Part shown: positions 5,724 through 39,061 of the stretch, in pieces
How positions within the stretch are numbered: position 1 is the stretch's first letter
How the letters are laid out: every line of letters starts with the position of its first letter
From: Candidatus Zipacnadia bacterium
GTDB taxonomy: Bacteria; Armatimonadota; Zipacnadia; Zipacnadales; UBA5352
Assembly: GCA_029820045.1 (NCBI GenBank)
Contig: JALGVE010000005.1
Location: 1-41,697 of the forward strand
Length of the DNA stretch: 41,697 nucleotides
Reading direction: 5' to 3'
Position numbers and translations under genes: made by a program
Notes under the pieces: model-generated
What the model saw: the letters and a program-made list of their open reading frames with translations, nothing else
What the model was told of the DNA's origin: nothing
The model's database searches: none

Positions 5724-7115
5724 CTATCCTGTCTCGATGCCCTGGTCTCTGAGCTTCCGCTCCAGCGTACGCGGAGTTATGCCCAGGATCTCGGCCGTCC
5801 GGGCAATGTTGCCGCCGGTAGCCTCGTAAACGCGCGCCACGTGCTCCGCCTCCAGCTCCGCCAGCGTGAGCAGGCCCTCCTCGTCATGGGCTTCGGGCGC
5901 GGGGGACGAGTGACCCGCAGCCCCCCCCGGAAAGCCCGCATCATCAAGCATCAGGTGCTGGGGCCGGAGGGTGTCGCCATCGGCCATGAGCAGCGCGCGC
6001 TGAACGACGTTTTCCAACTGCCGCAGGTTACCGGGCCAAGGCTGCGCCTTGAGGGCGGCCATCGCCTCCTCCGAGATGCGCCGTGGGCCTCCTCCCTGGC
6101 GCCGACGGTACTTCTTCAGAAAGTGCCGCGCGAAGACCTCAACATCCTCCGGGCGCTGCTCCAGCGTCGGCAGACCCAGGGGAACCACGTTGAGCCGATA
6201 GAGCAGGTCCTGGCGAAAGCGCCCCTCTCGGACCGCCTGGGTCAGGTCCGTGTTGCTGGCGCTGATAATGCGCGTATCCACCTCGATGGGCTTCACCCCG
6301 CCCAGCCGCGTGAAGGTGTAATCCTGCGTGAAACGCAGGAGCTTGACCTGGTTCTCCGAGCTCATCTCGCCGACCTCATCCAGGAAGAGCGTGCCGCCGT
6401 CGGCCACCTCGCACAGCCCGACCTTGGCCTGCGTGGCCGAGGTGAAGGCGCCCTTCTCATGGCCGAACAGCTCGCTGGCAAGAAGCTGCTCGGGCAGAGC
6501 GCCGCAGTTGACCGCCACGAAGTGCTTGTCGGCACGGCCGCTCATGTAGTGCACGGCGCGGGCGAGGTACTCCTTGCCGGTCCCGGTCTCGCCCTGGACG
6601 AGGATGGGGGCGTTGCTGCCGGCGACGCGGGCGGCGGTGACGTAGGCCTGCTGTACCTTAGCATTGCGGCTCATCACGTGATCGAAGCCGTAGCGGCTGC
6701 GGAGGCCGTCCCAAAGATAGGCCATGCGGTCGAAGGCCAGCTCGGAGCTGAGGCCCTGTGACACGCGCTCGAGGAGGTCACCGGGCTTGAAGGGCTTCTC
6801 CAGGTAGTCGCAGGCCCAGTAGCCGAGGGCATCAATGGCGGTCTCGAGAGTGGGGTGGGCCGTGATGATGAGGGCAGGCCCGGCGAAGCCGCGCCCGCGC
6901 AGCTCGCCAAGCAGCTCGACGCCATCAGCGTCGGGAAGGACGCGGTCGAGCACCAATAGATCGCACTCCTGCTGGGCGAGCGCGGCCTCAGCCTCGGCGC
7001 CGGTCTCCGCGGTGCGGACTTCGTACTGCGCGCTCTCCAAGGCGCGCTGCACGGTGTCCCGCATGTTGGGATCATCATCAACGACCAGGATGCGCGGATT
7101 ATCGTTTGCTTCCAC
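5724..7115 (-). CDS. NtrC-family sigma-54 activator (REC-AAA+-Fis), flagellar type
   Basis: This is a response regulator that activates sigma-54 promoters, similar in build to FlrC/FleR/FlbD-type activators. From the chosen GTG, the receiver spans ~7-125 with acidic pocket DDD, phospho-acceptor Asp57 (LLVLD), Thr (IITAH) and Lys (LEKPFKP). The AAA+ domain has Walker A GETGTGKE (~175) and Walker B GGTLFLDE (~240). A C-terminal Fis helix-turn-helix carries GGNIARTAEILGITPRTLE. The sigma-54 contact loop reads GAFTSA (6435-6452) instead of GAFTGA. The GTG at 7115 has a GAGG site 5 nt upstream and gives a normal receiver N-terminus. An ATG at 7145 lies inside a palindrome, and longer versions are repeat-coded. 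It follows fliA in the same direction and likely acts on the -24/-12 sites of this locus. Confidence 0.92.
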   Translation of the reverse strand: MEANDNPRILVVDDDPNMRDTVQRALESAQYEVRTAETGAEAEAALAQQECDLLVLDRVLPDADGVELLGELRGRGFAGPALIITAHPTLETAIDALGYWACDYLEKPFKPGDLLERVSQGLSSELAFDRMAYLWDGLRSRYGFDHVMSRNAKVQQAYVTAARVAGSNAPILVQGETGTGKEYLARAVHYMSGRADKHFVAVNCGALPEQLLASELFGHEKGAFTSATQAKVGLCEVADGGTLFLDEVGEMSSENQVKLLRFTQDYTFTRLGGVKPIEVDTRIISASNTDLTQAVREGRFRQDLLYRLNVVPLGLPTLEQRPEDVEVFARHFLKKYRRRQGGGPRRISEEAMAALKAQPWPGNLRQLENVVQRALLMADGDTLRPQHLMLDDAGFPGGAAGHSSPAPEAHDEEGLLTLAELEAEHVARVYEATGGNIARTAEILGITPRTLERKLRDQGIETG

Positions 7116-7301: not shown

Positions 7302-8060
7302 TTAGCCGAGCCTGGCGAAGAGGCCGGCGCGCAGGCGCGCGATGGCCTGAGTGTGAATCTGGCAGATGCGCGATTCGGTCACGCCGAGCACCGCGCCGAT
7401 CTCCTGCAGCGTCAACTCCTCGTCATAGTAGAGGCCGATGACCAACTGCTCGCGCTCGGACAGCTCGCCTATCGCCTCGGCCAGCAGGCGGCGGAGTTCA
7501 GCGTTGTCCACCGCGGTCGCGGGGTTCCACTCGGTTCGGCCGGAGATGAAGTCATCGTTGGAGGGCATCCTGGCATCGCCGGCGGCCTCGGCCAGCGCCT
7601 CAATCGAGACGATGGCCGTGGCAGTGGCGTCCCTGAGGAGCTGCTCATATTCCTCGGGGCTGAGGCCAAGCTCGCGAGCGATCTCGCCCTCCTGGGGCTG
7701 GCGCCCGAGCTTCTGCCGCAGGCGCGCGATGCCGTCCTCCAGGCGGCGGTACTTGCTGCGCAGGCCGCGCGGCGCCCAGTCCATGGTGCGCAACTCGTCC
7801 ATGATGGCCCCGCGCATCATGGTGGTGGCGTAGGTCGAGAAGCTCGCGCCGCGGTTGGGGTCGAAGCGATCCACCGCCCGGATGAGGCCGATGATACCAG
7901 CGCTGATCAGGTCATCGCGGTCAACCTGGGCGGGAAGCCCAGCCGCGACCCGGTCCACCTCGTACTTGACCAGGTCCACATGCTGGTGGATGATCTGCTC
8001 TCGCTCACCCTGGGACATCTTCGACGAGCCCGGTGTCGTGTACAACGTAGTCCCTCTCAT
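7302..8060 (-). CDS. fliA: RNA polymerase sigma factor FliA (sigma-28, WhiG family)
   Basis: This sigma factor transcribes late flagellar genes such as flagellin and motor genes. Region 2 is clear: DRDDLISAGIIGLIRAVDRF, FSTYATTMMRGAIMDELR, and the FliA-specific MDWAPRGLR. Region 3 has GRQPQEGEIARELGLSPEEY and region 4 has LSEREQLVIGLYYDEELT with LQEIGAVLGVTESRICQIH. The length is normal. Two starts are possible: the ATG at 8060 (252 aa) and an ATG at 8018 (238 aa). The latter is nearer to the usual FliA N-terminus; neither has a strong ribosome site. A near-perfect sigma-28 promoter lies upstream of fliJ in this window. No anti-sigma gene flgM is seen here. Confidence 0.95.
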   Translation of the reverse strand: MRGTTLYTTPGSSKMSQGEREQIIHQHVDLVKYEVDRVAAGLPAQVDRDDLISAGIIGLIRAVDRFDPNRGASFSTYATTMMRGAIMDELRTMDWAPRGLRSKYRRLEDGIARLRQKLGRQPQEGEIARELGLSPEEYEQLLRDATATAIVSIEALAEAAGDARMPSNDDFISGRTEWNPATAVDNAELRRLLAEAIGELSEREQLVIGLYYDEELTLQEIGAVLGVTESRICQIHTQAIARLRAGLFARLG

Positions 8061-13460: not shown

Positions 13461-14180
13461 TTAGCCGTCGTTGGCTGTCGTTAGCGCGGCGCGGATCGTG
13501 ACCGCGCAGCGGCCGTAGAGCGCTTGCACCTCGTCGGGCGGCACCTCAAGCAACTCCACGATCTCCGGGAAGCTGAGCCTCTCCTGGAAGTACAGGGTGA
13601 GCAGCTTGGCTTGCGGCGGTCGCAAGCCAGCGATGGCGGAAGCGAGGTCGGCACGCTGCGCCGGGCTGAGCTGCCCCACGGGAATCATCCGCTCCGGGCT
13701 GACCCCGAAGACTAACCCCGCCTCCACGAAGGCATCCTGAAGATCATCGGTGTCGAGGCCAAGCTCGGCAGCGAGGTCCTCGTCCACGCGCGGGTCGCAT
13801 CGGCAGGCGGCGGCGCACAGGGGCTCGACCCGCCGCGACCAAGCAGATCGAAACCACCCGGTGCCCTGGGCCCAGCGTCGCAAGTCCTCCAGGATCTGCC
13901 GCGCAGTCACCTCCTCGAACCGCGTCTCGTCCATCCCTGCGTGCTCAGTTGCCTCGATGAGCGTCATCAGGCCCCGGCCTATCAGGAGGCTCTCGTCCAG
14001 GTACGGCGAGAGCTGCGCGCCGAGGCGACCGATGGCTACCTTGACGAGATGAGGGAACCTCTGTACCAGCTCATGACGGCTCGCCAGGCTCTCGGGCGAG
14101 CCGTGCAAGAGCGCCCGCGAGGTCGGGCAGTGATTGTGATAGGCCAGGTCGCGATAGGTCGCGAGGGCTTCCAGCGTCAT
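13461..14180 (-). CDS. divergent FliA-like sigma-70 family protein
   Basis: This 239-aa protein aligns by eye along its length with the FliA encoded at 7302-8060, although identity is low. HLVKVAIGRLGAQLSPYLDE matches the region-2 start DLVKYEVDRVAAGLPAQVDR, and LLIGRGLMTLIEATE matches LISAGIIGLIRAVD. DEDLAAELGLDTDDLQ matches the region-3 motif. LRPPQAKLLTLYFQERLSF then PEIVELLEV..DEVQALYGR matches region 4. The -10-binding segment (GAIMDELRTMDWAPR in FliA) is poorly kept (QILEDLRRWAQGTGW). It may be a second flagellar sigma factor or a sigma mimic. A strong AAAGGAGA ribosome site precedes the ATG. It lies between fliQ and flhA in the operon. Confidence 0.6.
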   Translation of the reverse strand: MTLEALATYRDLAYHNHCPTSRALLHGSPESLASRHELVQRFPHLVKVAIGRLGAQLSPYLDESLLIGRGLMTLIEATEHAGMDETRFEEVTARQILEDLRRWAQGTGWFRSAWSRRVEPLCAAACRCDPRVDEDLAAELGLDTDDLQDAFVEAGLVFGVSPERMIPVGQLSPAQRADLASAIAGLRPPQAKLLTLYFQERLSFPEIVELLEVPPDEVQALYGRCAVTIRAALTTANDG

Positions 14181-20123: not shown

Positions 20124-20360
20124 CTAGCGGATGATGCGGCCCCACTGCGCCATGGTGGCCGGGCTGCCCGCGTCGTCCTCGGCGCGCAGGGAGCGCATGT
20201 ACTCGACCGCGCGCGCGACTACCTCATCCACGCTCTCCCGGACTACGTAGCTGTTGCCGGTGGTGAGCGTTATCACGGTGTCCGGCACCGCCTCCAGCTT
20301 TTCCACCAGCAGGGCGTTGATCACCAGTTCCCGACCGTCAAAGCCCGTCACGCGTATCAT
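20124..20360 (-). CDS. flbD: flagellar protein FlbD
   Basis: This 78-aa protein matches the small FlbD family (not the Caulobacter regulator of the same name): MIRVTGFDGRELVINALLVE, KLEAVPDTVITLTTGNSYVV and RESVDEVVARAVEYMRSL cover the family pattern I.VT...G....N..LIE.IE..PDT.ITL..G....V.ES..E. Its role is not established; it is commonly found between flgE and motA, as here. A sigma-54-type promoter lies just before it, so close that the predicted transcript start would fall almost at the ATG. Confidence 0.9.
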   Translation of the reverse strand: MIRVTGFDGRELVINALLVEKLEAVPDTVITLTTGNSYVVRESVDEVVARAVEYMRSLRAEDDAGSPATMAQWGRIIR

Positions 20361-20374
20361 GCCAATCCCCGGTT

Positions 20375-20393
20375 AAGCAAGTGTTGTGCCAAG
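20375..20393 (-). promoter_or_regulatory. sigma-54-type -24/-12 promoter before flbD-motAB
   Basis: The minus strand reads CTTGGCACAACACTTGCTT. It has TGGCAC at -24 and TTGC at -12 with GG-N10-GC spacing. The predicted start of transcription (~20365) is only about 5 nt before the flbD ATG at 20360, so the flbD ribosome site (CCGGGG) would be largely outside the transcript. It may mainly serve motA and later genes, or flbD may be translated from a near-leaderless mRNA. Confidence 0.65.
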
Positions 20394-21766: not shown

Positions 21767-23152
21767 TCAGAGGTCGGATAGCACTTCCCTGATAAGCTGC
21801 TCGGGGGCCTGAACGGGCTGTGGCGGCTCGCACGGGAGCCTGAGGTCCACGCGGGCGCCCCGACCGGGCTGCGACTTGATCGTGAGCTGCCCGCGGTGCG
21901 CGACGACTATGCCGCGGGTGACGCTCAAGCCCAGGCCCTGATGAGTGCCCGGGCGGGTCGTGAAGAAGGGTTCGGTGGCACGTCGGCATACCTCCTTTGT
22001 CATCCCGGGGCCGTTGTCTTCGACCGAGATGTGGCAGTGACCGCCCTCGCGCTGAGTGATCACCGCAATATCGCCGTCGCCTTCGAGTGCCTGAATGGCG
22101 TTGAAGATGATGTTGATGAGAGCCTCACGAATCTGAGCCGCACTTCCCCACGCCAAGCAATCGGCACACAGGTGGGTGCGCAGCCGGATGCCCCGACATG
22201 CCCCGGGATCAATACAGACCTGCTGAACGAGGCGCACGACGTCGCCCGCGAGTTCGCTGAGATCCACAGGCTGCATCTCGCCGGTAATGGGGCGGGCCGC
22301 GAACTTCTCAAGCGAGCGCATCATGTCAATGCCCGCGTACGTGGACTGCTCCAGCTTGCGCTCTAGCTCCACGCAAGCGCTGTCCTCCAGCCGCTCGCCC
22401 AGGAAGTACAGGTTGCCCAGGATGGCGCTGAAGATGTTGCCGAGCGAGTGCGCCACGCCGAAGGCCATGTTCATCAGAGCTCTCATCTGCTCCACATCGT
22501 GCACGTCGTAGGGGGTGCCGAGCTTCAGCTCGGCCTGGAGGGGTCGGGCTCCAGGGGCCGAGCTAGAGCTCCGCTCCTCCAACCGCCACAGCACCGCGGC
22601 GACCGAGGAGGCGATGGGCTCCAGAACCTGCGCGGACTCGCAGCAGACCCGGTCGGCGCCACCGGCGAAGCCCAGCAAGCCGATGGGCTCCTCACGCTCG
22701 GTCGGCCGCAGCGGCAGGGCTAGCCAACTCTCAAAGCCAGCGTCACTGAGATACCCATCGAAGGCTGAGTAGGGCTCTACCTCAGCGTCGGCGCGATTCG
22801 ATGACCGCTCGAAGATGCGGGTCGCCTGCGGTCCCAGGTCCCATATCTCCCCGGGATGCAGAGAGGCCTCCGAGAGCGGCGCCGCTGCCTCGACACAGAG
22901 GGCGTTGGGCTCTCGCGACGGTGCCAGCAGGAATACCTGGTCGTAGTCAAGCATGTCGTGGAGTTCCTCGGTAACTAGGACGGCGGCATTCCGCCGGTCA
23001 TAGCTGCCACCGGCTGCCCGGGCTATCTTCTCCAGGCAGGAACTGTAGGACAGACGCCCTCGTCTGTCGGAAGCGTCGGCAGACGAACAAGAAGGACGAG
23101 TGAGGTCACCTGTCCTACCGACGGCGCGGAACGGCGACGCCGATGATGGCAT
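21767..23152 (-). CDS. GAF-type sensor histidine kinase in the flagellar operon
   Basis: This 461-aa cytoplasmic kinase has no membrane segment. Residues ~40-195 look like a GAF domain (VTEELHDMLDYDQVFLLAPS, SWLALPLRP). The H-box is FGVAHSLGNIFSAILGN, with the likely phosphorylated His near residue 235. The ATPase domain has NIIFNAIQAL (N-box), DNGPGM (G1), EPFFTTRPG and HQGLGLSVTRGIV (G2). The ATG at 23152 has GGGAGG 8 nt upstream. Two repeat elements lie in frame: 23045-23118 (residues ~12-36) and a CCGAGCTTCAGCTCGG hairpin (~22516-22532) in the linker before the kinase core. It may phosphorylate the NtrC-type activator at 5724-7115, as FlrB does FlrC; this is inferred from context only. 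Confidence 0.88.
   Translation of the reverse strand: MPSSASPFRAVGRTGDLTRPSCSSADASDRRGRLSYSSCLEKIARAAGGSYDRRNAAVLVTEELHDMLDYDQVFLLAPSREPNALCVEAAAPLSEASLHPGEIWDLGPQATRIFERSSNRADAEVEPYSAFDGYLSDAGFESWLALPLRPTEREEPIGLLGFAGGADRVCCESAQVLEPIASSVAAVLWRLEERSSSSAPGARPLQAELKLGTPYDVHDVEQMRALMNMAFGVAHSLGNIFSAILGNLYFLGERLEDSACVELERKLEQSTYAGIDMMRSLEKFAARPITGEMQPVDLSELAGDVVRLVQQVCIDPGACRGIRLRTHLCADCLAWGSAAQIREALINIIFNAIQALEGDGDIAVITQREGGHCHISVEDNGPGMTKEVCRRATEPFFTTRPGTHQGLGLSVTRGIVVAHRGQLTIKSQPGRGARVDLRLPCEPPQPVQAPEQLIREVLSDL
23045..23118. repeat. 74-bp element with inverted ends inserted in the kinase gene
   Basis: The ends GTAGGACAG (23045-23053) and CTGTCCTAC (23110-23118) are perfect 9-bp inverted repeats. 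The inside also has AGACG...CGTCT pairs. A fragment of the same element is at about 18098-18118. It is read in frame by the histidine kinase gene. Confidence 0.8.
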
Positions 23153-27327: not shown

Positions 27328-27540
27328 GCCCCCATTAATCCGGTAGGTCGGCCTGCGCCTGCCGGTTCCCGCGTACCTCCTCGCCAGCCGAGGGCTTGCC
27401 CTCAGTGTGGAGCGTAAGCGCTCCGCTGCGACGGACGGAAGGGAAGCGCCTGGCGGCCCCAAAGAGCTAAGTCCGGACACTGACCTGACCTTGTGCAGCA
27501 GGGCTGAAGGGCGGCAAAAGGGGGGGAGGAGCGGCGAGGG

Positions 27541-28140
27541 GGGATAGTGCAGGGCCGGCGACATTCTTGTTGCCGGTCGTTGAGCCAACAGGAGTAGGAG
27601 GCGTAGGGCAGCCCGACAAGAATGTCGGGCCTCCGGGAGAATATCGGGTCCCCTGAGGGATAGTACAGGGGCGGCGACATTCTTGTCGCCGGTCGTTGAG
27701 CCAGGAGGAGTAGCAGGCTTAGGGCAGCCCGACAAGAATGTCGGGCCTCCGGGAGAATGTCGGGCCCCCTCAGGGATAGTACAGGGCCGGCGACATTCTT
27801 GTCGCCGGTCGTTGAGCCAGCAGGAGTAGCAGGCTTCGGGCAGCCCGACAAGAATGTCGGGCCCCCTGAGGGATAGTACAGGGCCGGCGACATTCTTGTT
27901 GCCGGTCGTTGAGCCAACAGGAGTAGGAGGCGTAAGGCAGCCCGACAGGAATGTCGGGCCCCCGGGAGAATGTCGGGCCCCCTGAGGGATAGTACAGGGG
28001 CGGCGACATTCTTGTCGCCGGTCGTTGAGCCAACAGGAGTAGCAGGCTTAGGGCAGCCCGACAAGAATGTCGGGCCCCCGGGAGAATGTCGGGTCCCCTG
28101 AGGGATAGTACAGGGCCGGCGACATTCTTGTCGCCCATGC
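27541..28140. repeat. tandem array of 116-bp units between fliI and fliJ
   Basis: Six starts of the ACATTCTTGT word at 27561, 27677, 27793, 27890, 28006 and 28122 define 116-bp units, one shortened to 97 bp by loss of 19 bp. Each full unit holds GGCGACATTCTTGTCGCC, the phrase GGTCGTTGAGCCA, and CCCGACAAGAATGTCGGGC, followed by GGGAGAATGTCGGG and CCCTGAGGGATAGTACAGGG. No gene is supported in 27328-28169; open frames there are repeat-coded. Confidence 0.95.
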
Positions 28141-33224: not shown

Positions 33225-33644
33225 CTAGCCTTTCCTCCCGTCGCCGATAGCGGTCCCGACCATCTGCAGCTTCTTTCTCAGCAGCCGGGTGAGCGCTTCA
33301 TAGCGCAGGCTGGTCTCGCTCAGGGCCGTCATCTCAGCCTCGATGTCCACGTTGTTCCCGTCCGCGCTCATTGGCTGCGCAGTCGAGCGCACGATGCGAG
33401 GCTCAACCCGCTCGAGCGGCGAGGGTTCAGCCCCATGCGACCGCTCACCAGGACGGCCCTCGGCGGCGAGGGCGGATCGCAGCAGGTCCTCGAACTCGGC
33501 GTGGCTGGCGATGAAGCCCGGTGTCTCGAGGTTGGCCAGGTTGTTCGCGATCAGCCTCTGCTGAAGCGCCGTGCCATCCAGCGCCTTCTCCAGGGCGAGG
33601 GCGCTCATGTCCGTGACTATTCGTGGTGACATCGTTGACACCAT
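33225..33644 (-). CDS. flgB: flagellar basal-body rod protein FlgB
   Basis: The 139-aa rod protein has the motif QQRLIANNLANLETPGFIAS and FEDLLRSAL, and the C-terminal part MSADGNNVDIEAEMTALSET then SLRYEALTRLLRKKLQM, typical of FlgB. The true start could be the ATG at 33644 or 33632; neither has a clear ribosome site. A longer frame to 33686 would begin inside the sigma-54-type promoter at 33685-33703 and is unlikely. It is the first gene of the flgB-flgC-fliE-fliF-fliH-fliI run. Confidence 0.93.
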   Translation of the reverse strand: MVSTMSPRIVTDMSALALEKALDGTALQQRLIANNLANLETPGFIASHAEFEDLLRSALAAEGRPGERSHGAEPSPLERVEPRIVRSTAQPMSADGNNVDIEAEMTALSETSLRYEALTRLLRKKLQMVGTAIGDGRKG

Positions 33645-33684
33645 GCCGTTGCGGCGGAGTGGTCTTGAGCTTCCGTCACGACAC

Positions 33685-33703
33685 ATGCAACAACTGTGCC
33701 GCG
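33685..33703 (-). promoter_or_regulatory. sigma-54-type -24/-12 promoter before flgBC-fliEFHI
   Basis: The minus strand reads GCGGCACAGTTGTTGCATG. The -24 element is CGGCAC (one change from TGGCAC) and the -12 is TTGCAT, with GG-N10-GC spacing. The predicted start is near 33676, leaving 30-45 nt before flgB. It lies between rpoN and flgB, where a new transcript for the rod and MS-ring genes makes sense. Confidence 0.75.
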
Positions 33704-33754
33704 TGGACGAGACCTTCCACGAGGGGCGAGAGTCGACATCACGGATGATGACAT

Positions 33755-35110
33755 CTAGGCCGCGGCCTGGGCCTTGCGCTGTGAGGAAGACGGTATGCCG
33801 AGGGCGTGGCGGTACTTGGTGACGGTCCGGCGCGCCAGGTCAAAGCCTCGCTCGGCCAGGAGCCTCTGAAGCTGATCGTCAGTAAGGGGGGCGTCCGAGG
33901 CCTCCGAGGCAATGAGGCCCTTCATCACCGTCTTCGCAGGCAGCGCGTCATCAAAGAAGAGCGAGTAGGGCGCGACCTCGCCCGAGGGCATCATGAGCAG
34001 CTTGCCGGCGACCGCGCGGGACACCGTGGACTCGTGCAGGCCGGTTGTCTCAGCCACCTGCTTGTGCGAGAGCGGCTTGAGCGCCAGCGGGCCCTCGCGG
34101 AAGAAGTCGGCCTGCGCCTCGACGATGGCTTGAGTAACCTTGTACAGACCACGGTTGCGCTGGTCGAGGGACCATATCAGTTGCCGGGCGGCGCGCACCT
34201 GCGCGCGAGCGTACTTGGTCGCCGCATCCCCGGCTCGCAGGTTCTGCGCGCGCATACCCTCATCGAGGCGGCGGTAGGCCTCGCTCAGTCGGACCACGAT
34301 GTTGCGGGAGGAGAGCAACTCAGTCTGGAGCTGTCCATTGCGCAGCGACACAAGCGCATCGGGCTGGGCGGCATAGGGGTTGTCGGGCAGCAGGTGCTGC
34401 CAGGGCGGGTGGAACTGCTCGCCTGGATACGGGTGCAGGTTGTGCCGCACGAAGCTGAGGGCGCTCTCCAACTGTTCCCGGCTCAGTCCCAGGCTGCGGC
34501 AGAGGTGCGCATATCCGCCGCGTTCAGTCAGCTCGGCCGTGTGCTGTATGATCTGCCGCACATGCGGGGGTTCCTCAGGAAGCGCTTCCAGTTGCAGCAG
34601 CAAGCACTCGCGCAGGTCGCGCGCGCCAACACCCGGCATGCTCAGGCTCTGAAGGCGACGCAGCGCCGCCTCAACCTCGGTCTCCTCTACCCCTAGCTCC
34701 AGGGAGGCGTCGAAGACGCTGGTGTTCAGGTAGCCGCGCTCGTCAATGTGCTCAATGAGGTAGTCAACTATGCGGCGCTCACGCTCGTTCGTAGCGCACG
34801 CCGCCCGCCACCGAAGTTCATCCCTGAGCGTGTACCGCGCAGGCGCCCGCAGGGTCGGGTCCTGAGACTCCGGCGGACCCGGGTTGCCGGGGGGGAGGGG
34901 CGCGTCCCACCAGGCGCGCCAGTTCCACTGCTCGATGGAGGGGGGCCTCACCTCGACCTCCAGGGCAGGGTTCTCCTCCGCCTCCTCCGTGATCCTCTCA
35001 CAGAGTTCGAGATAGGGTAGTTCCAACAGTTCGCTGCGAATGATAAGCTGACAGTTTACCGTGGGGACTTGGTCAACCGACATGGCGACGGTGGTGGCGA
35101 ACTCGAGCAA
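33755..35110 (-). CDS. rpoN: RNA polymerase sigma-54 factor RpoN
   Basis: The 451-aa sigma-54 has the core-binding and DNA-binding parts clearly kept: RIVDYLIEHIDERGYL, LQSLSMPGVGARDLRECLLL, HPYPGEQF, the HTH AETTGLHESTVSRAVAGK and the RpoN box ARRTVTKYRHALGIPSSSQR. Region I is divergent: the Gln-rich MTPQLQQAI..LQL pattern of well-studied RpoNs reads TVNCQLIIRSELLELPYLEL. The start is TTG with AGGGGG 11 nt upstream; an ATG at 35083 is the alternative. Its place beside flgB and the presence of three -24/-12 sites in the locus suggest a flagellum-dedicated sigma-54. Confidence 0.95.
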   Translation of the reverse strand: MLEFATTVAMSVDQVPTVNCQLIIRSELLELPYLELCERITEEAEENPALEVEVRPPSIEQWNWRAWWDAPLPPGNPGPPESQDPTLRAPARYTLRDELRWRAACATNERERRIVDYLIEHIDERGYLNTSVFDASLELGVEETEVEAALRRLQSLSMPGVGARDLRECLLLQLEALPEEPPHVRQIIQHTAELTERGGYAHLCRSLGLSREQLESALSFVRHNLHPYPGEQFHPPWQHLLPDNPYAAQPDALVSLRNGQLQTELLSSRNIVVRLSEAYRRLDEGMRAQNLRAGDAATKYARAQVRAARQLIWSLDQRNRGLYKVTQAIVEAQADFFREGPLALKPLSHKQVAETTGLHESTVSRAVAGKLLMMPSGEVAPYSLFFDDALPAKTVMKGLIASEASDAPLTDDQLQRLLAERGFDLARRTVTKYRHALGIPSSSQRKAQAAA

Positions 35111-35210
35111 TTCGTGGTGCCCCCTGTTTGCCGAGAGATGTACACATATATCGGCGTCAGGGGAGCCAACTTGAGGAAATCGCCGCTGTGAGCTGGAAGT
35201 GAAATCCTCA

Positions 35211-35266
35211 CCCGCCGGCGGCGCGGCGTATTACGCCGCGCAAGGCGCGGGATATGATCCCGCGCC
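35211..35266. repeat. two adjacent hairpins upstream of rpoN
   Basis: GCGCGGCG-TATTA-CGCCGCGC (35221-35241) is followed after two bases by GGCGCGGGA-TATGA-TCCCGCGCC (35244-35266). The design resembles the other paired palindromes but the sequence is distinct. They lie between the receiver gene and rpoN and could also affect transcription into rpoN. Confidence 0.8.
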
Positions 35267-35365
35267 TCCGGACGACAAATCCTCGCCGTCGCTGCGAGGG
35301 AGAGGGGAAAGAGACCGCGCAACGGTCTCAGGGATGAGACGGTTGGCGCAGCGCCATCAGGCCGC

Positions 35366-35743
35366 TCATGGTGAGTCAGGCTGAGACCGCGTGGTGAGGG
35401 TGGTCATGATGTGCTGCTTGAGTTCGTGGAAGTCGGGGCTCCGTTTCATGAACCCCTCCGCAACCCAGGCCAGTACCTCATCGGTTCGGGTCGCGGAGAC
35501 GGCGCTGATGACCAGCGGCACCGGCCGGTCCAGCATGGCTATGTCCCACAGCAGGTCCAGTCCATCTATGTCCGGTGCGGCGAGGTTGAGCACTGCCACG
35601 TCGGGCCATCCCTCCCTGATGGCCGCAACCGCGCCATCGGCGTCGTCTACGTCTCGCACCTCGAAGCCCTCGCCCTCAAGAGCATCGCGGTAGTCGGTGC
35701 ACAGATCGCTATTGCCCTCAAGCAGCAGAACTCGTGTCGGCAT
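35366..35743 (-). CDS. stand-alone receiver protein lacking the phospho-acceptor Asp
   Basis: The 125-aa protein has the fold pattern of a response-regulator receiver with no output domain. The usual V-L-D-L-x-M-P motif reads VAVLNLAAPDIDGLDLL, so the phospho-acceptor position is Asn. The acidic pair after strand 1 is Glu-Gly (LLLEGNSD) in place of Asp-Asp. The Ser/Thr switch residue (VISAVSA) and the Lys (GFMKRS) are kept. It should not be phosphorylated in the normal way and may act as a constitutive binding protein. AGGAGG precedes the ATG. It sits between fliM and rpoN, where a CheY- or motor-related role is possible but unproven. Confidence 0.85.
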   Translation of the reverse strand: MPTRVLLLEGNSDLCTDYRDALEGEGFEVRDVDDADGAVAAIREGWPDVAVLNLAAPDIDGLDLLWDIAMLDRPVPLVISAVSATRTDEVLAWVAEGFMKRSPDFHELKQHIMTTLTTRSQPDSP

Positions 35744-36400
35744 CTTCCCGGCCTCCTGACGCTCGTTCGGCCCAACGGGTTGGATGACATCCGTGCGACG
35801 TGAACGCGAGGTTACCCCTCAGGGGTCTCGAGATTCCCATCCGCCTCAGGGGCCCCGACATTCCTGTCGGGGCGTCATTCGGCGACAAGAATGTCGCCGC
35901 CCCTGTGTGCTGTCGAGGCCCGACATTCTCGTCTCAGGGGCCCCGACATTCCTGTCGGGGCGTCATTCGGCGACAAGAATATCGCCGCCCCTCTTCGAGG
36001 TTCTCTCGGCGCCTTGTGAATGCCCCGTCCATTCCTCAGGATGCCCGACATTCTCCTGCGCCCCAGGGGCCCCGACATTCCTGTCGGGTTCCTGTTGCCG
36101 TTCGGCGACAGGAATGTCGCCGCCCCTGTGTACTGTCGAGGCCCGATATTCTCGTCTCAGGGGCCCCGACATTCCTGTCGGGGCGTCATTCGGCGACAAG
36201 AATGTCGCCGCCCCTGTGTACTGTCGAGGCCCCACATCCTCGTCTCAGGGGGCCCGACATTCCTGTCGGGGCGTCATTCGGCGACAAGAATGTCGCCGCC
36301 CCCGTGTACTGTCGAGGCCCGATATTCTCGTCGAGCCGTCCATCCTCAGGGCCTCCTGCAAGAAGTGTGCCAAGCCTTGGGGGAGTGTCCGCATTGTCCG
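35744..36400. repeat. tandem palindrome array between fliM and the receiver gene
   Basis: Five copies of CCCCGACATTCCTGTCGGG-type hairpins start at about 35853, 35941, 36070, 36164 and 36252. The spacing is 88, 129, 94 and 88 bp. Each is followed by GGCGACAAGAATGTCGCC-type hairpins and a CTGTCGAGGCCC phrase. No gene is supported here; the open frames on both strands are repeat-coded. Confidence 0.92.
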
Positions 36401-37357
36401 TCACGGCGCGAACTCCTCCGTTGGGCCCAGCAGGCGCGCGGCGAGATGCCCTTGGCGCACTCCTGCCTGAGCCAGGAACTTGGGGCGACCGCGCACCGCC
36501 AGGGTCAGGGGGGCGTCCATGGGCTTCCGCAGCGGAATCACTTGCCCTTCGCGCAGGCGCATCGCCTGCCCGAGGGAGATACTGCCCTGATGGACGACGA
36601 CGCTCACCCGCACCATGACCTGAGAAGCCGTCTTGTCCAGCGACAGTCTCGAGGTGGCGTCGGCCTCCGCGCGCGCGTCATCCTGCTCGCTGCCCAGCAA
36701 ACGCTGCACGGTGTTGACCGGTAGCAGCAGGTTCATCGCGCCCTGCTGCTCCGCAATGGTTGTGGCGATGCGAAACCACATCACCTGCTCGTCGCGCACT
36801 CGCGTCTGCAATTGCGCGAGATCGGCCACGACCTCGGTGACCTCGGGGTGCCATTGAGCCAGGCCCTCCCACGTCGCCGCCCACACGTCCATCATCTCCT
36901 GGATGAAGCGCCCGAGCAGGGCGGATTCCAGAGCGGTGGGCGAGCGCCCGAACTCCAGCGTACCGCCGCCCAGCATGTGGCCAATGATCGCTCCGGTCAG
37001 GACGCCGTCTATGTGCCAGATGATATCCGGCAGGTGCTCGGCGACCTCCACAATGCCTACCACGGGGAACTCGCCGAGCCGCTGAAGGCAGCGATCCAGT
37101 GTCGAGGCCTCCAGGGCCTCCGTGTGAGCGCTCGCGGTGGTATCGAGGTACGCGCTTACGATGGGCCCCAGCACCCGGGCGAACTTCCCGCACCGGGTCC
37201 GAAGCTGGAAGACGCCCTCACGTGGCATCTCGCTCCCCGTGCGGAAGTCGTAGGGCTCCGGGGCGGTGGCAGAGGCATCTGGTTCCTGGGAATCGTGCCC
37301 TTGCGCGGGCCCAGCGAGACCTTCAGGCAGGGACTCGGCGGCGGATGCGTCCATCAC
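36401..37357 (-). CDS. fliM: flagellar motor switch protein FliM
   Basis: The 318-aa FliM starts its conserved core at residue ~35 (PYDFRTG, FQLRTRCGKFARVLGPIVSA), continues with the middle CheC-like domain (VVGIVEVAEHLPDIIWHIDG, HMLGGGTLEFGRSPTALESA, PEVTEVVADLAQLQTRVRDE) and ends in a FliN-like SpoA domain (VRVSVVVHQGSISLGQAMRL, LTLAVRGRPKFLAQAGVRQG). The N-terminal CheY-P-binding motif (LSQ.EIDALL) is missing; the first ~34 residues are Ala/Pro/Glu-rich. The start is GTG at 37357 or ATG at 37354, with GAGGGGG upstream. Confidence 0.94.
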   Translation of the reverse strand: MMDASAAESLPEGLAGPAQGHDSQEPDASATAPEPYDFRTGSEMPREGVFQLRTRCGKFARVLGPIVSAYLDTTASAHTEALEASTLDRCLQRLGEFPVVGIVEVAEHLPDIIWHIDGVLTGAIIGHMLGGGTLEFGRSPTALESALLGRFIQEMMDVWAATWEGLAQWHPEVTEVVADLAQLQTRVRDEQVMWFRIATTIAEQQGAMNLLLPVNTVQRLLGSEQDDARAEADATSRLSLDKTASQVMVRVSVVVHQGSISLGQAMRLREGQVIPLRKPMDAPLTLAVRGRPKFLAQAGVRQGHLAARLLGPTEEFAP

Positions 37358-37377
37358 AAATAGCCCCCTCGGACCTT

Positions 37378-37545
37378 GCGAAAAGGGGGACGGAGCCTTT
37401 TCCCCTTTCCAGTAGGGCGGGCTTCCAGCCCGCCGGCACAGCGATGACGCTCCGCCTTGGCGTGGTGGGCTGGAAGCCCGCCCTACTGGTACAAGGAGGC
37501 TGTCGCTTCTGTGGGCGTGGGGAAACGCTCCGTCCCCTTTTTCCG
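37378..37545. repeat. nested inverted-repeat elements in the fliG-fliM gap
   Basis: The outer arms are GAAAAGGGGGACGGAGCC (37379 on) and its near complement ending GGGGAAACGCTCCGTCCCC (about 37519-37537). Inside lies a second element with arms GTAGGGCGGGCTTCCAGCCC plus GCC (37412-37434) and its complement (37465-37487, one mismatch). The inner type recurs at 39062-39142. The arrangement suggests insertion of one element into another. Confidence 0.88.
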
Positions 37546-38526
37546 CTACTCAATGTACGCCTGTTTCTGGGCTGACAGGCTGATCTCTCCGGCATCCTCC
37601 AGCTCAAGGGCCTTCTGCACGAACTCCTTCTGTGCCGCTTCGACCTCGCTCACCAGCACGGGACCGAGCAGCTCCATCTCCTGCTCGAGAATCTCCTGCG
37701 CGCGCTGTGAGAGGTTGGCGAATACTAGCTGCACGACCTCATCATCCATGCCCTTGAGCGCGCGCGCGATGACGGCGTGGTCCAGGGCCCGCAGCACTAG
37801 TTGGAAGTCACGCTCCGGCAGCTTGATGACGCTGTCGAAGGTGAACAACTGATCCTCCACCTGAGCGGCGAGCTCCTCGTCGCGAGCGCGCAGCTCCTCC
37901 AGGAGCTGCTTGCCGGTCGCCCGGTCCATATCCTCGAGCAGCTTGACCACAAAGCCCACGCCGGTGCCGGTTGTGCTCTCGTCGTCAAGGAGATAGGAGC
38001 GTGCGCCCAGTTGCTCGCCGATGGCCTCGAGTGTGCCCGGCGCCAACTGTCCCAGGGTCGCGACCCGCCAGGTCAGGTCCGCACGCTCCTCCTCGGGCCA
38101 GGCCTCCAGGACCTGTGCCGCCTTCTCCGGCGTGAGCTGAGCGAGAATGAGCGCCACCATGGGAGGCGCCTCCCCCTGCAGAAGCCGCCGCACCGTGTTG
38201 GGGTCGGACTTGCTCAGGGCCCGCACTCTCTCCAGCGCCGACTGCTGTTTCGGGTCACGCCGTCTCGACCCTCTTGGGCCGAGGACTGCGTCCATCAGCT
38301 CCTCGGCCACGCCAGCGCCGCCCAGGGGCCTCGCATCCCCCATGTGCTCGCGGAAGGCGGCGAGCACCTCTCGTTGCTCCTCGGGGGGCACAGGCCCCAG
38401 CGTGGCGATCTCCTTGAGCAGCCTCTCCGCCTCGACCTCGCTCATCCGCTTGCACACCTCGGCCGCTGTCTCCTGGTCGAGACTCGCGAGTACGATGGCA
38501 GCCTTGCGCAGTTCTGCCCTGTCCAT
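37546..38526 (-). CDS. fliG: flagellar motor switch protein FliG
   Basis: The 326-aa protein shows the three FliG domains: the N-terminal FliF-binding part (LRKAAIVLASLDQETAAEVC), the middle ARM domain (LILAQLTPEKAAQVLEAWPE) and the C-terminal torque domain (EDQLFTFDSVIKLPERDFQL, VLRALDHAVIARALKGMDDE, VFANLSQRAQEILEQEMELL). The EHPQ-like motif of the middle domain reads EAPPMVALILAQL. The frame is open to 38736 upstream, but those 70 residues cross the sigma-54-type promoter at 38695-38713 and have no FliG similarity, so the ATG at 38526 is chosen. It leads the fliG-fliM-receiver-rpoN run. Confidence 0.95.
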   Translation of the reverse strand: MDRAELRKAAIVLASLDQETAAEVCKRMSEVEAERLLKEIATLGPVPPEEQREVLAAFREHMGDARPLGGAGVAEELMDAVLGPRGSRRRDPKQQSALERVRALSKSDPNTVRRLLQGEAPPMVALILAQLTPEKAAQVLEAWPEEERADLTWRVATLGQLAPGTLEAIGEQLGARSYLLDDESTTGTGVGFVVKLLEDMDRATGKQLLEELRARDEELAAQVEDQLFTFDSVIKLPERDFQLVLRALDHAVIARALKGMDDEVVQLVFANLSQRAQEILEQEMELLGPVLVSEVEAAQKEFVQKALELEDAGEISLSAQKQAYIE

Positions 38527-38694
38527 TCGAGGTGACCTATGTACCCTTCTCTCGCTGAAACCGGGGGTGTCGAGGCGGGCTCGATCGAGCTCAGCAGGCG
38601 CAGCAGTGACACAGGCGACCTCGCCTGCGCACGTCAAGAGCAAGGCGCTGAGCCGAGAAACCTGCACCAGCCGGGCTTGACGCCAACGAGAGGT

Positions 38695-38713
38695 GTGCAA
38701 TTGGCGTGCCAAG
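38695..38713 (-). promoter_or_regulatory. sigma-54-type -24/-12 promoter before fliG
   Basis: The minus strand reads TTGGCACGCCAATTGCAC. This is a full match to TTGGCACG at -24 and TTGC at -12 with GG-N10-GC spacing, the strongest of the three sites in the window. The predicted start is near 38686, giving a leader of about 160 nt before the fliG ATG. It would drive fliG, fliM and possibly the receiver gene and rpoN, allowing sigma-54 to promote its own synthesis. Confidence 0.85.
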
Positions 38714-39061
38714 CCGCCTGCGCGCGGGCCGGTCATGCTGGCCCGGCGGCTGTGGACCCAGGACCAACCTCACGAGTGAAGGGGCGAGACCAGGTCCGGG
38801 CAGCCTGATCTCGCCCTGGCTTTCGGCCACTGACCCCGCCCCAGGGGGTGGAAGCGGAGCCCGCCGATTACCGCCTTTGGCCCCACGCCCAGGTGATGGC
38901 CTGCGCAGATGGAGCCTGCCACAAGGACTATCGGGACGCCAGGGTCTGAGATTGAGCGGCCAGAGGTAAACCTTTTCGCTTGGCAGGAGCATCGTTTTTC
39001 ACAAGGGTGGGCCTTCTGAGTGGCACAGGCATCCATTCGTGGACGACAGACGCACTCAAGC

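Follow-up and report, generated by a model that had tools for sequence, protein, structure and literature searches.

A probable flagellum-centred sigma-54 circuit encoded in the flagellar cluster of a Zipacnadia bacterium

Does a bacterium that carries the sigma-54 gene rpoN, an NtrC-family activator and a histidine kinase within one flagellar cluster keep sigma-54, a regulator that commonly serves many purposes, mainly for its flagellum, and does the sigma factor promote its own synthesis from there? This question is raised by a contig of Candidatus Zipacnadia bacterium (Armatimonadota), analyzed here as a single window that comprises the entire contig (C40, 41.7 kb) of a 2.6-Mb assembly about 60% complete; genome-wide counts refer to those 2.6 Mb. 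Relatives are cited by handle (G001, G035 and the like) and include nine sister genomes of the same family together with members of other families, of the order and of the phylum. FlhA, which shares 71-75% identity with matches in named metagenome-assembled genomes, places the bacterium in Candidatus Zipacnadia (UBA5377/WS1). That class has been reported from Guaymas Basin sediments with flagella encoded, and the word “sigma” is absent from the main text of that report (PMC10290634). We consider it probable that the flagellar cluster of this bacterium encodes a sigma-54 circuit centred on the flagellum.

As assigned by Pfam, the cluster lies mostly on the minus strand and runs in the order fliG, fliM, rpoN, flgB, flgC, fliE, fliF, fliH, fliI, an SLT protein, fliK and flgD, followed by the kinase, flgE, flbD, motA, motB, fliL, a FliN-type protein, fliO, fliP, flhA, fliR, flhB, fliA and the activator; fliD is found on the plus strand. 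The regulatory genes are as follows.

33755-35110, minus strand: rpoN (sigma-54), matching PF04552 (4.7e-40), PF04963 (8e-38) and PF00309 (2.5e-7), with TIGR02395 above cut-off
5724-7115, minus strand: NtrC-family enhancer-binding protein with receiver, AAA+ (GAFTSA) and Fis-type helix-turn-helix (HTH), from Pfam, a genome search and motifs
5727-5846, minus strand: Fis-type HTH at the C-terminus of the activator (Pfam HTH_8, 5.2e-11)
21767-23152, minus strand: soluble histidine kinase between flgD and flgE (weak GAF plus HATPase, Pfam)
7302-8060, minus strand: fliA (sigma-28), adjoining the activator gene (TIGR02479 above cut-off)

An earlier sequence-only reading of this DNA had recognized genes for RpoN, an NtrC-family activator and a histidine kinase, and all three are borne out by Pfam and NCBIfam. 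The RpoN protein has region I, the core-binding domain, the DNA-binding domain and an RpoN box (ARRTVTKYR), and its gene gives the single match in the assembly. The search for a second rpoN, which had been recommended as a check, found none in the assembly and none in sisters with a genome completeness of 86-98%; each sister has at most one rpoN locus (none was found in G007), double matches being fragments of one gene. Similarly, the activator is the only true sigma-54 activator gene in the assembly, three other weak AAA+/Sigma54_activat matches having been rejected as ClpC- and MoxR-type proteins. It combines a receiver (PF00072, 6.9e-26), whose phospho-acceptor Asp in LVLDRVLP aligns across the clade, with an AAA+ domain (PF00158, 6.2e-65) that carries the Walker A motif GETGTGKE. 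Each sister genome has a single activator, next to fliA in the flagellar cluster, and no second one was found in those at 86-98% completeness. The kinase has no transmembrane segment and is conserved in the cluster of the family, its copy in G007 lying beside fliA and the activator, and it is the likely partner of the activator.

The candidate promoters and the genes that they precede are listed next, with scores from a position weight matrix (PWM) that was trained on the sister species only and compared with 20 Markov controls, of which the best scored 15.2.

38696-38710, minus strand: sigma-54 -24/-12 core upstream of fliG (core match, conservation, PWM 18.5)
37546-38556, minus strand: fliG, with an approximate domain-based 5′ end and the start set by alignment; the longest open reading frame (ORF) reaches 38736
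33686-33700, minus strand: sigma-54 -24/-12 core upstream of flgB (core match, conservation, PWM 19.0)
33225-33608, minus strand: flgB, with a domain-based start
36401-37357, minus strand: fliM (Pfam)
36357-36371, minus strand: extra sigma-54 -24/-12 core upstream of a receiver-like gene and rpoN (PWM 16.0)
20376-20390, minus strand: weaker sigma-54 -24/-12 candidate upstream of flbD-motA-motB (PWM 9.5)
20124-20360, minus strand: flbD-like small protein before motA, 65-73% identical in sister genomes

The sequence-only reading had proposed three promoters on the minus strand (38695-38713, 33685-33703 and 20375-20393); all three sites exist and share the core GGCAC-N5-TTGCW. The GG-N10-GC spacing by which they had been recognized carries no statistical weight, with 946 matches in the window against 949 expected, and it was dropped as evidence since its frequency is that of chance. 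The full core, GGCACNNNNNTTGCW, is found four times in the window where 0.24 would be expected, and none of 100 shuffles reached four; the matches lie before fliG, flgB and flbD and, at a position that the earlier reading did not include, after fliM, 30 bp past its stop codon. The strict TGGCAC form, TGGCACNNNNNTTGCW, has exactly three matches in the 2.6 Mb, all of them in the window contig. A looser core pattern has 10 matches genome-wide and 11 in the reversed control, a total at chance level, so the genome-wide count was also discarded and only the placement of the matches is used as evidence: four of the 10 fall in the window, which makes up 1.6% of the genome, and the remaining six lie inside coding sequence. 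The chance of finding three of three in the window is about 4e-6 and that of four of 10 about 1e-5, both calculated post hoc and serving as a guide only. On these figures it is the placement of the core matches, and not their number, that is non-random. A genome-wide frequency equal to chance had been named beforehand as a refutation; taken literally the frequency is indeed at chance, but such a measure is unsuited to a regulon of few promoters.

The three highest PWM scores in the window belong to the sites before flgB and fliG and after fliM, all of them above 20 of 20 Markov controls. Moreover, the core before fliG is present in all eight sister genomes whose contig covers the position, and the core before flgB in seven of eight testable sisters, the remaining one reading TTAC instead of TTGC at -12, whereas the intergenic DNA around both sites is otherwise diverged among the sister species. 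The longest ORFs of fliG and flgB overlap their sites, but domain boundaries and sister-species alignments place the real starts (about 38556 and 33608) downstream of them. Could all of these sites still be accidents of GC-rich intergenic DNA, in a cluster that is transcribed by sigma-70 and sigma-28 only? The chance-level totals of GG-N10-GC and of the genome-wide core agree with this, as does one intragenic chance match elsewhere that reaches a PWM score of 21.9, yet the conservation of orthologous sites in diverged DNA and the confinement of every strict match of the genome to the window contig make it very improbable. The sigma-28 consensus had no match in the window or near fliD of the relatives.

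The circuit that we propose would operate as follows. On a presumed signal, the cytosolic histidine kinase would phosphorylate the single NtrC-family activator, which would then open RNA polymerase-sigma-54 complexes held at the -24/-12 promoters before fliG and flgB; the same activation is probable after fliM and before flbD. Transcription from the fliG promoter, joined here by the extra site after fliM, would enter rpoN and so create positive feedback, and the genes for late structures would be left to FliA.

Several observations weigh against such a circuit. The flbD site scores within the Markov controls, and its predicted leader is only about 5 nt, so that the Shine-Dalgarno sequence overlaps the promoter and would be cut off from the transcript. 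Among the three promoters first proposed it is thus the weak one, the fliG and flgB sites having stood. Several sisters have a less perfect version of the flbD site at the corresponding position, with a near-fixed distance of 15-16 nt from GC to ATG (leader 4-5 nt, Shine-Dalgarno outside the transcript); the site may produce a near-leaderless message, may serve motA, or may simply be weak. Around the sites, neither a palindrome nor common 8-mers for activator binding rose above shuffles. The activator lacks the GAFTGA motif of loop L1 and reads GAFTSA instead, as do 25 of 25 members of its clade in the order. Between the fliG promoter and rpoN the window contains weak terminator-like hairpins as well as a hairpin array. 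Furthermore, the missing part of a genome about 60% complete could hold another rpoN, activator or target, although sisters at 86-98% likewise show one rpoN and one activator. Finally, rpoN is kept in 20 of 31 relatives that have no flagellar flhA match.

How far the fliG promoter can account for rpoN depends on the DNA between fliM and rpoN, which in the window genome measures 1.29 kb and contains, besides the sigma-54 site just after fliM, two further features.

35817-36390, minus strand: hairpin-rich tandem repeat array between fliM and the receiver-like gene (repeat analysis)
35366-35743, minus strand: stand-alone receiver-domain protein (Pfam Response_reg, 4.4e-10)

The latter has Asn at the position of the phospho-acceptor Asp (VAVLNLAAP) and is probably a pseudo-receiver; G004 has a similar degenerate receiver-like ORF in its own fliM-rpoN gap. 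The hairpin CCCGACAGGAATGTCGGG is also dispersed, with 106 matches (at most two mismatches) in the 2.6 Mb and none in the reversed control; the family includes forms with compensating arms (GCC..GGC, CGC..GCG), forms tandem arrays at 35817-36390 and 27425-28135 of the window, and looks like an element of REP type.

It had been suggested that the fliG site lets sigma-54 drive its own operon. This is plausible, but transcription must cross 1.3 kb in which the hairpin array and the receiver-like gene lie, and no sigma-54 site lies within 360 bp before rpoN in the window. Both facts agree with an arrangement in which the fliG and flgB promoters use sigma-54 while rpoN has a separate sigma-70 promoter in the gap, with no self-amplification in this genome. 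A sigma-70 consensus was not found at 33600-38800, however, and transcription towards rpoN may instead start from the extra sigma-54 site that directly follows fliM. Five of the sister species where it is measurable have a gap of no more than about 100-165 bp; fliM and rpoN are near-contiguous there, so that transcription from the fliG promoter can continue into rpoN. Sister genomes with spanning contigs keep rpoN between fliM and flgB in the same gene order, and rpoN is likewise next to flgB or fliG/motA in other families of the order; in G035 and G036, members of another family, it sits between fliG and motA with a sigma-54 site about 23-30 nt before its start. We therefore regard a separate promoter for rpoN as rather unlikely. 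Positive self-regulation of rpoN is likely, as judged from gene arrangement and site position, and the feedback seems to have been kept through different gene arrangements, which argues that it matters.

Is the system then dedicated to the flagellum, or is rpoN merely linked to the cluster while sigma-54 serves a broad regulon of nutrition, envelope and exopolysaccharide genes, with flagella as one target? Phylum-wide, 28 of 30 genomes with flagellar flhA have rpoN, against the 20 of 31 without (Fisher p ~0.01, uncorrected for relatedness and with counts blurred by missing contigs, for example in G004), an association that is present but loose. G021, G039 and G040, genomes without a flagellar flhA match from another family of the order, carry orthologous rpoN and activator genes a few kb apart in an exopolysaccharide locus, beside genes for polysaccharide export, sugar transfer and sugar modification. 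Dedication of rpoN and the activator to flagella is hence not absolute across the phylum. A further point for a broad regulon comes from G005 alone, where two near-perfect sigma-54 sites (L186, G005:C27:377357-377609) precede ATP-synthase-like genes that look by eye like the AtpI/AtpZ type. In the family of the window, on the other hand, each genome has one activator and it lies inside the flagellar cluster, and the non-flagellar core matches of the 2.6-Mb assembly are all intragenic. The sole conserved distant target is a gene for a Pro-rich lipoprotein, with a -24/-12 site at its start in eight of eight sister genomes that have the gene; in two examined loci it is near flgF/flgG, beside a TauE-like gene (L183, L184 and L185; protein family unassigned), and it was not found in the window genome or in G008. 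For the window's family, a broad regulon with a merely linked rpoN is in our judgment improbable.

The activator itself is best described as an NtrC-family homologue with a variant L1 loop. Trees support the GAFTSA clade; among seven outgroup sequences four end in FTGA (GAFTGA, GSFTGA twice and NAFTGA) and three, from G043-G045, are degenerate. Since F and T of the motif are retained, contact with sigma-54 is plausible; its function as an activator is putative. GAFTSA was not found in the literature searched, an absence that is not proof of novelty. The HTH, which the window copy retains, is missing in 12 of 25 orthologues, leaving a receiver-AAA+ protein in G001, G008, G009, G014, G019, G023, G035, G036, G039 and others. 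A frameshift or assembly error was rejected as the cause because no HTH occurs in any downstream frame, and well-supported branches of the whole 32-row tree force at least six changes of HTH state. With one activator per cell, the choice of promoter could rest on sigma-54 alone, which would fit this pattern. One may go further and suppose that in this order sigma-54 is paired privately with its only activator in a self-amplifying unit, in which the GAFTSA loop and region I have co-diverged, the HTH has become dispensable with a single activator and been repeatedly lost, and control of flagella and of exopolysaccharide has been exchanged without new enhancer sites; we put this forward as a speculation that is unlikely to hold in full.

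Flagellum-dedicated sigma-54 control is established in Helicobacter pylori and Campylobacter jejuni, which use the RpoN-FlgS-FlgR system (PMC3930126), and Rhodobacter sphaeroides has a dedicated rpoN2 inside its fla1 flagellar locus (PMC7277832). A flagellum-linked, dedicated rpoN is with these precedents less unusual than the sequence-only reading had held. As in H. pylori and C. jejuni, sigma-54 would here serve flagellar genes through an NtrC-type activator and a kinase that, like FlgS, is cytosolic. In contrast to those species, rpoN, activator and kinase lie in one flagellar cluster of a different phylum, and the candidate promoters also precede early genes (C-ring, rod and MS-ring). H. 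pylori FlgR activates without binding DNA (PMC3930126), and many orthologues of the window activator likewise have no C-terminal DNA-binding domain, but the window activator keeps its HTH and has GAFTSA. The same holds for the group 5 bacterial enhancer-binding proteins such as FlgR and CtcC, which consist of receiver and AAA+ without a DNA-binding domain (PMC7175178): several orthologues match this layout, whereas the window protein has the group 1 layout with HTH and its clade has switched layouts several times. Closer in gene arrangement is the RpoN2-FleQ-FleT (Fla1) system of R. sphaeroides, with rpoN inside the flagellar locus and sigma-54 promoters before basal-body genes; that species has four rpoN genes and two flagellar activators, the present assembly one rpoN and one activator with a receiver domain. 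Sigma-54 has also been proposed as a controller of the bacterial exterior (Francke et al., PMC3162934), and the orthologous rpoN and activator genes in flagellar and exopolysaccharide loci of sister families fit this proposal. That survey was cross-phylum and older than these genomes; the switch seen here is between orthologues within one order.

A literature search found no text joining Armatimonadota, flagella and sigma-54, although absence there is not proof of novelty. What appears new is the combination of a single rpoN and a single activator in one cluster with probable self-amplification, a variant contact motif and repeated HTH loss in the clade. Flagellum-dedicated sigma-54 control would thereby extend to an uncultured class of Armatimonadota, with a near-complete module in one locus. 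The orthologue set can be read as a natural experiment on the conditions under which the DNA-binding domain of an enhancer-binding protein can be lost, and it makes testable the prediction that the domain is lost when the protein is the only activator of the cell. Moreover, laboratory changes to the L1 motif usually destroy function, and the GAFTSA clade supplies a natural variant of it that has been conserved; the switch from flagellar to exopolysaccharide loci between families is a close-up case for sigma-54 control of the bacterial exterior.

Two further loci were observed in passing. Locus L063 (G000:C13) encodes a second type III export system that looks non-flagellar, with SctV-, SctU-, SctT-, SctR-, SctQ-, SctN- and SctL-like genes; a sigma-28-like factor of its own shares 52% identity with the window FliA. 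Many relatives, some of them without flagellar flhA, have a second FlhA-like match of this type. Within the window, a degenerate sigma-70-like protein (13461-14180, minus strand), which has region 4 only and is nearest to FliA/WhiG, lies between flhA and fliP and is 39-44% identical in several sister genomes.

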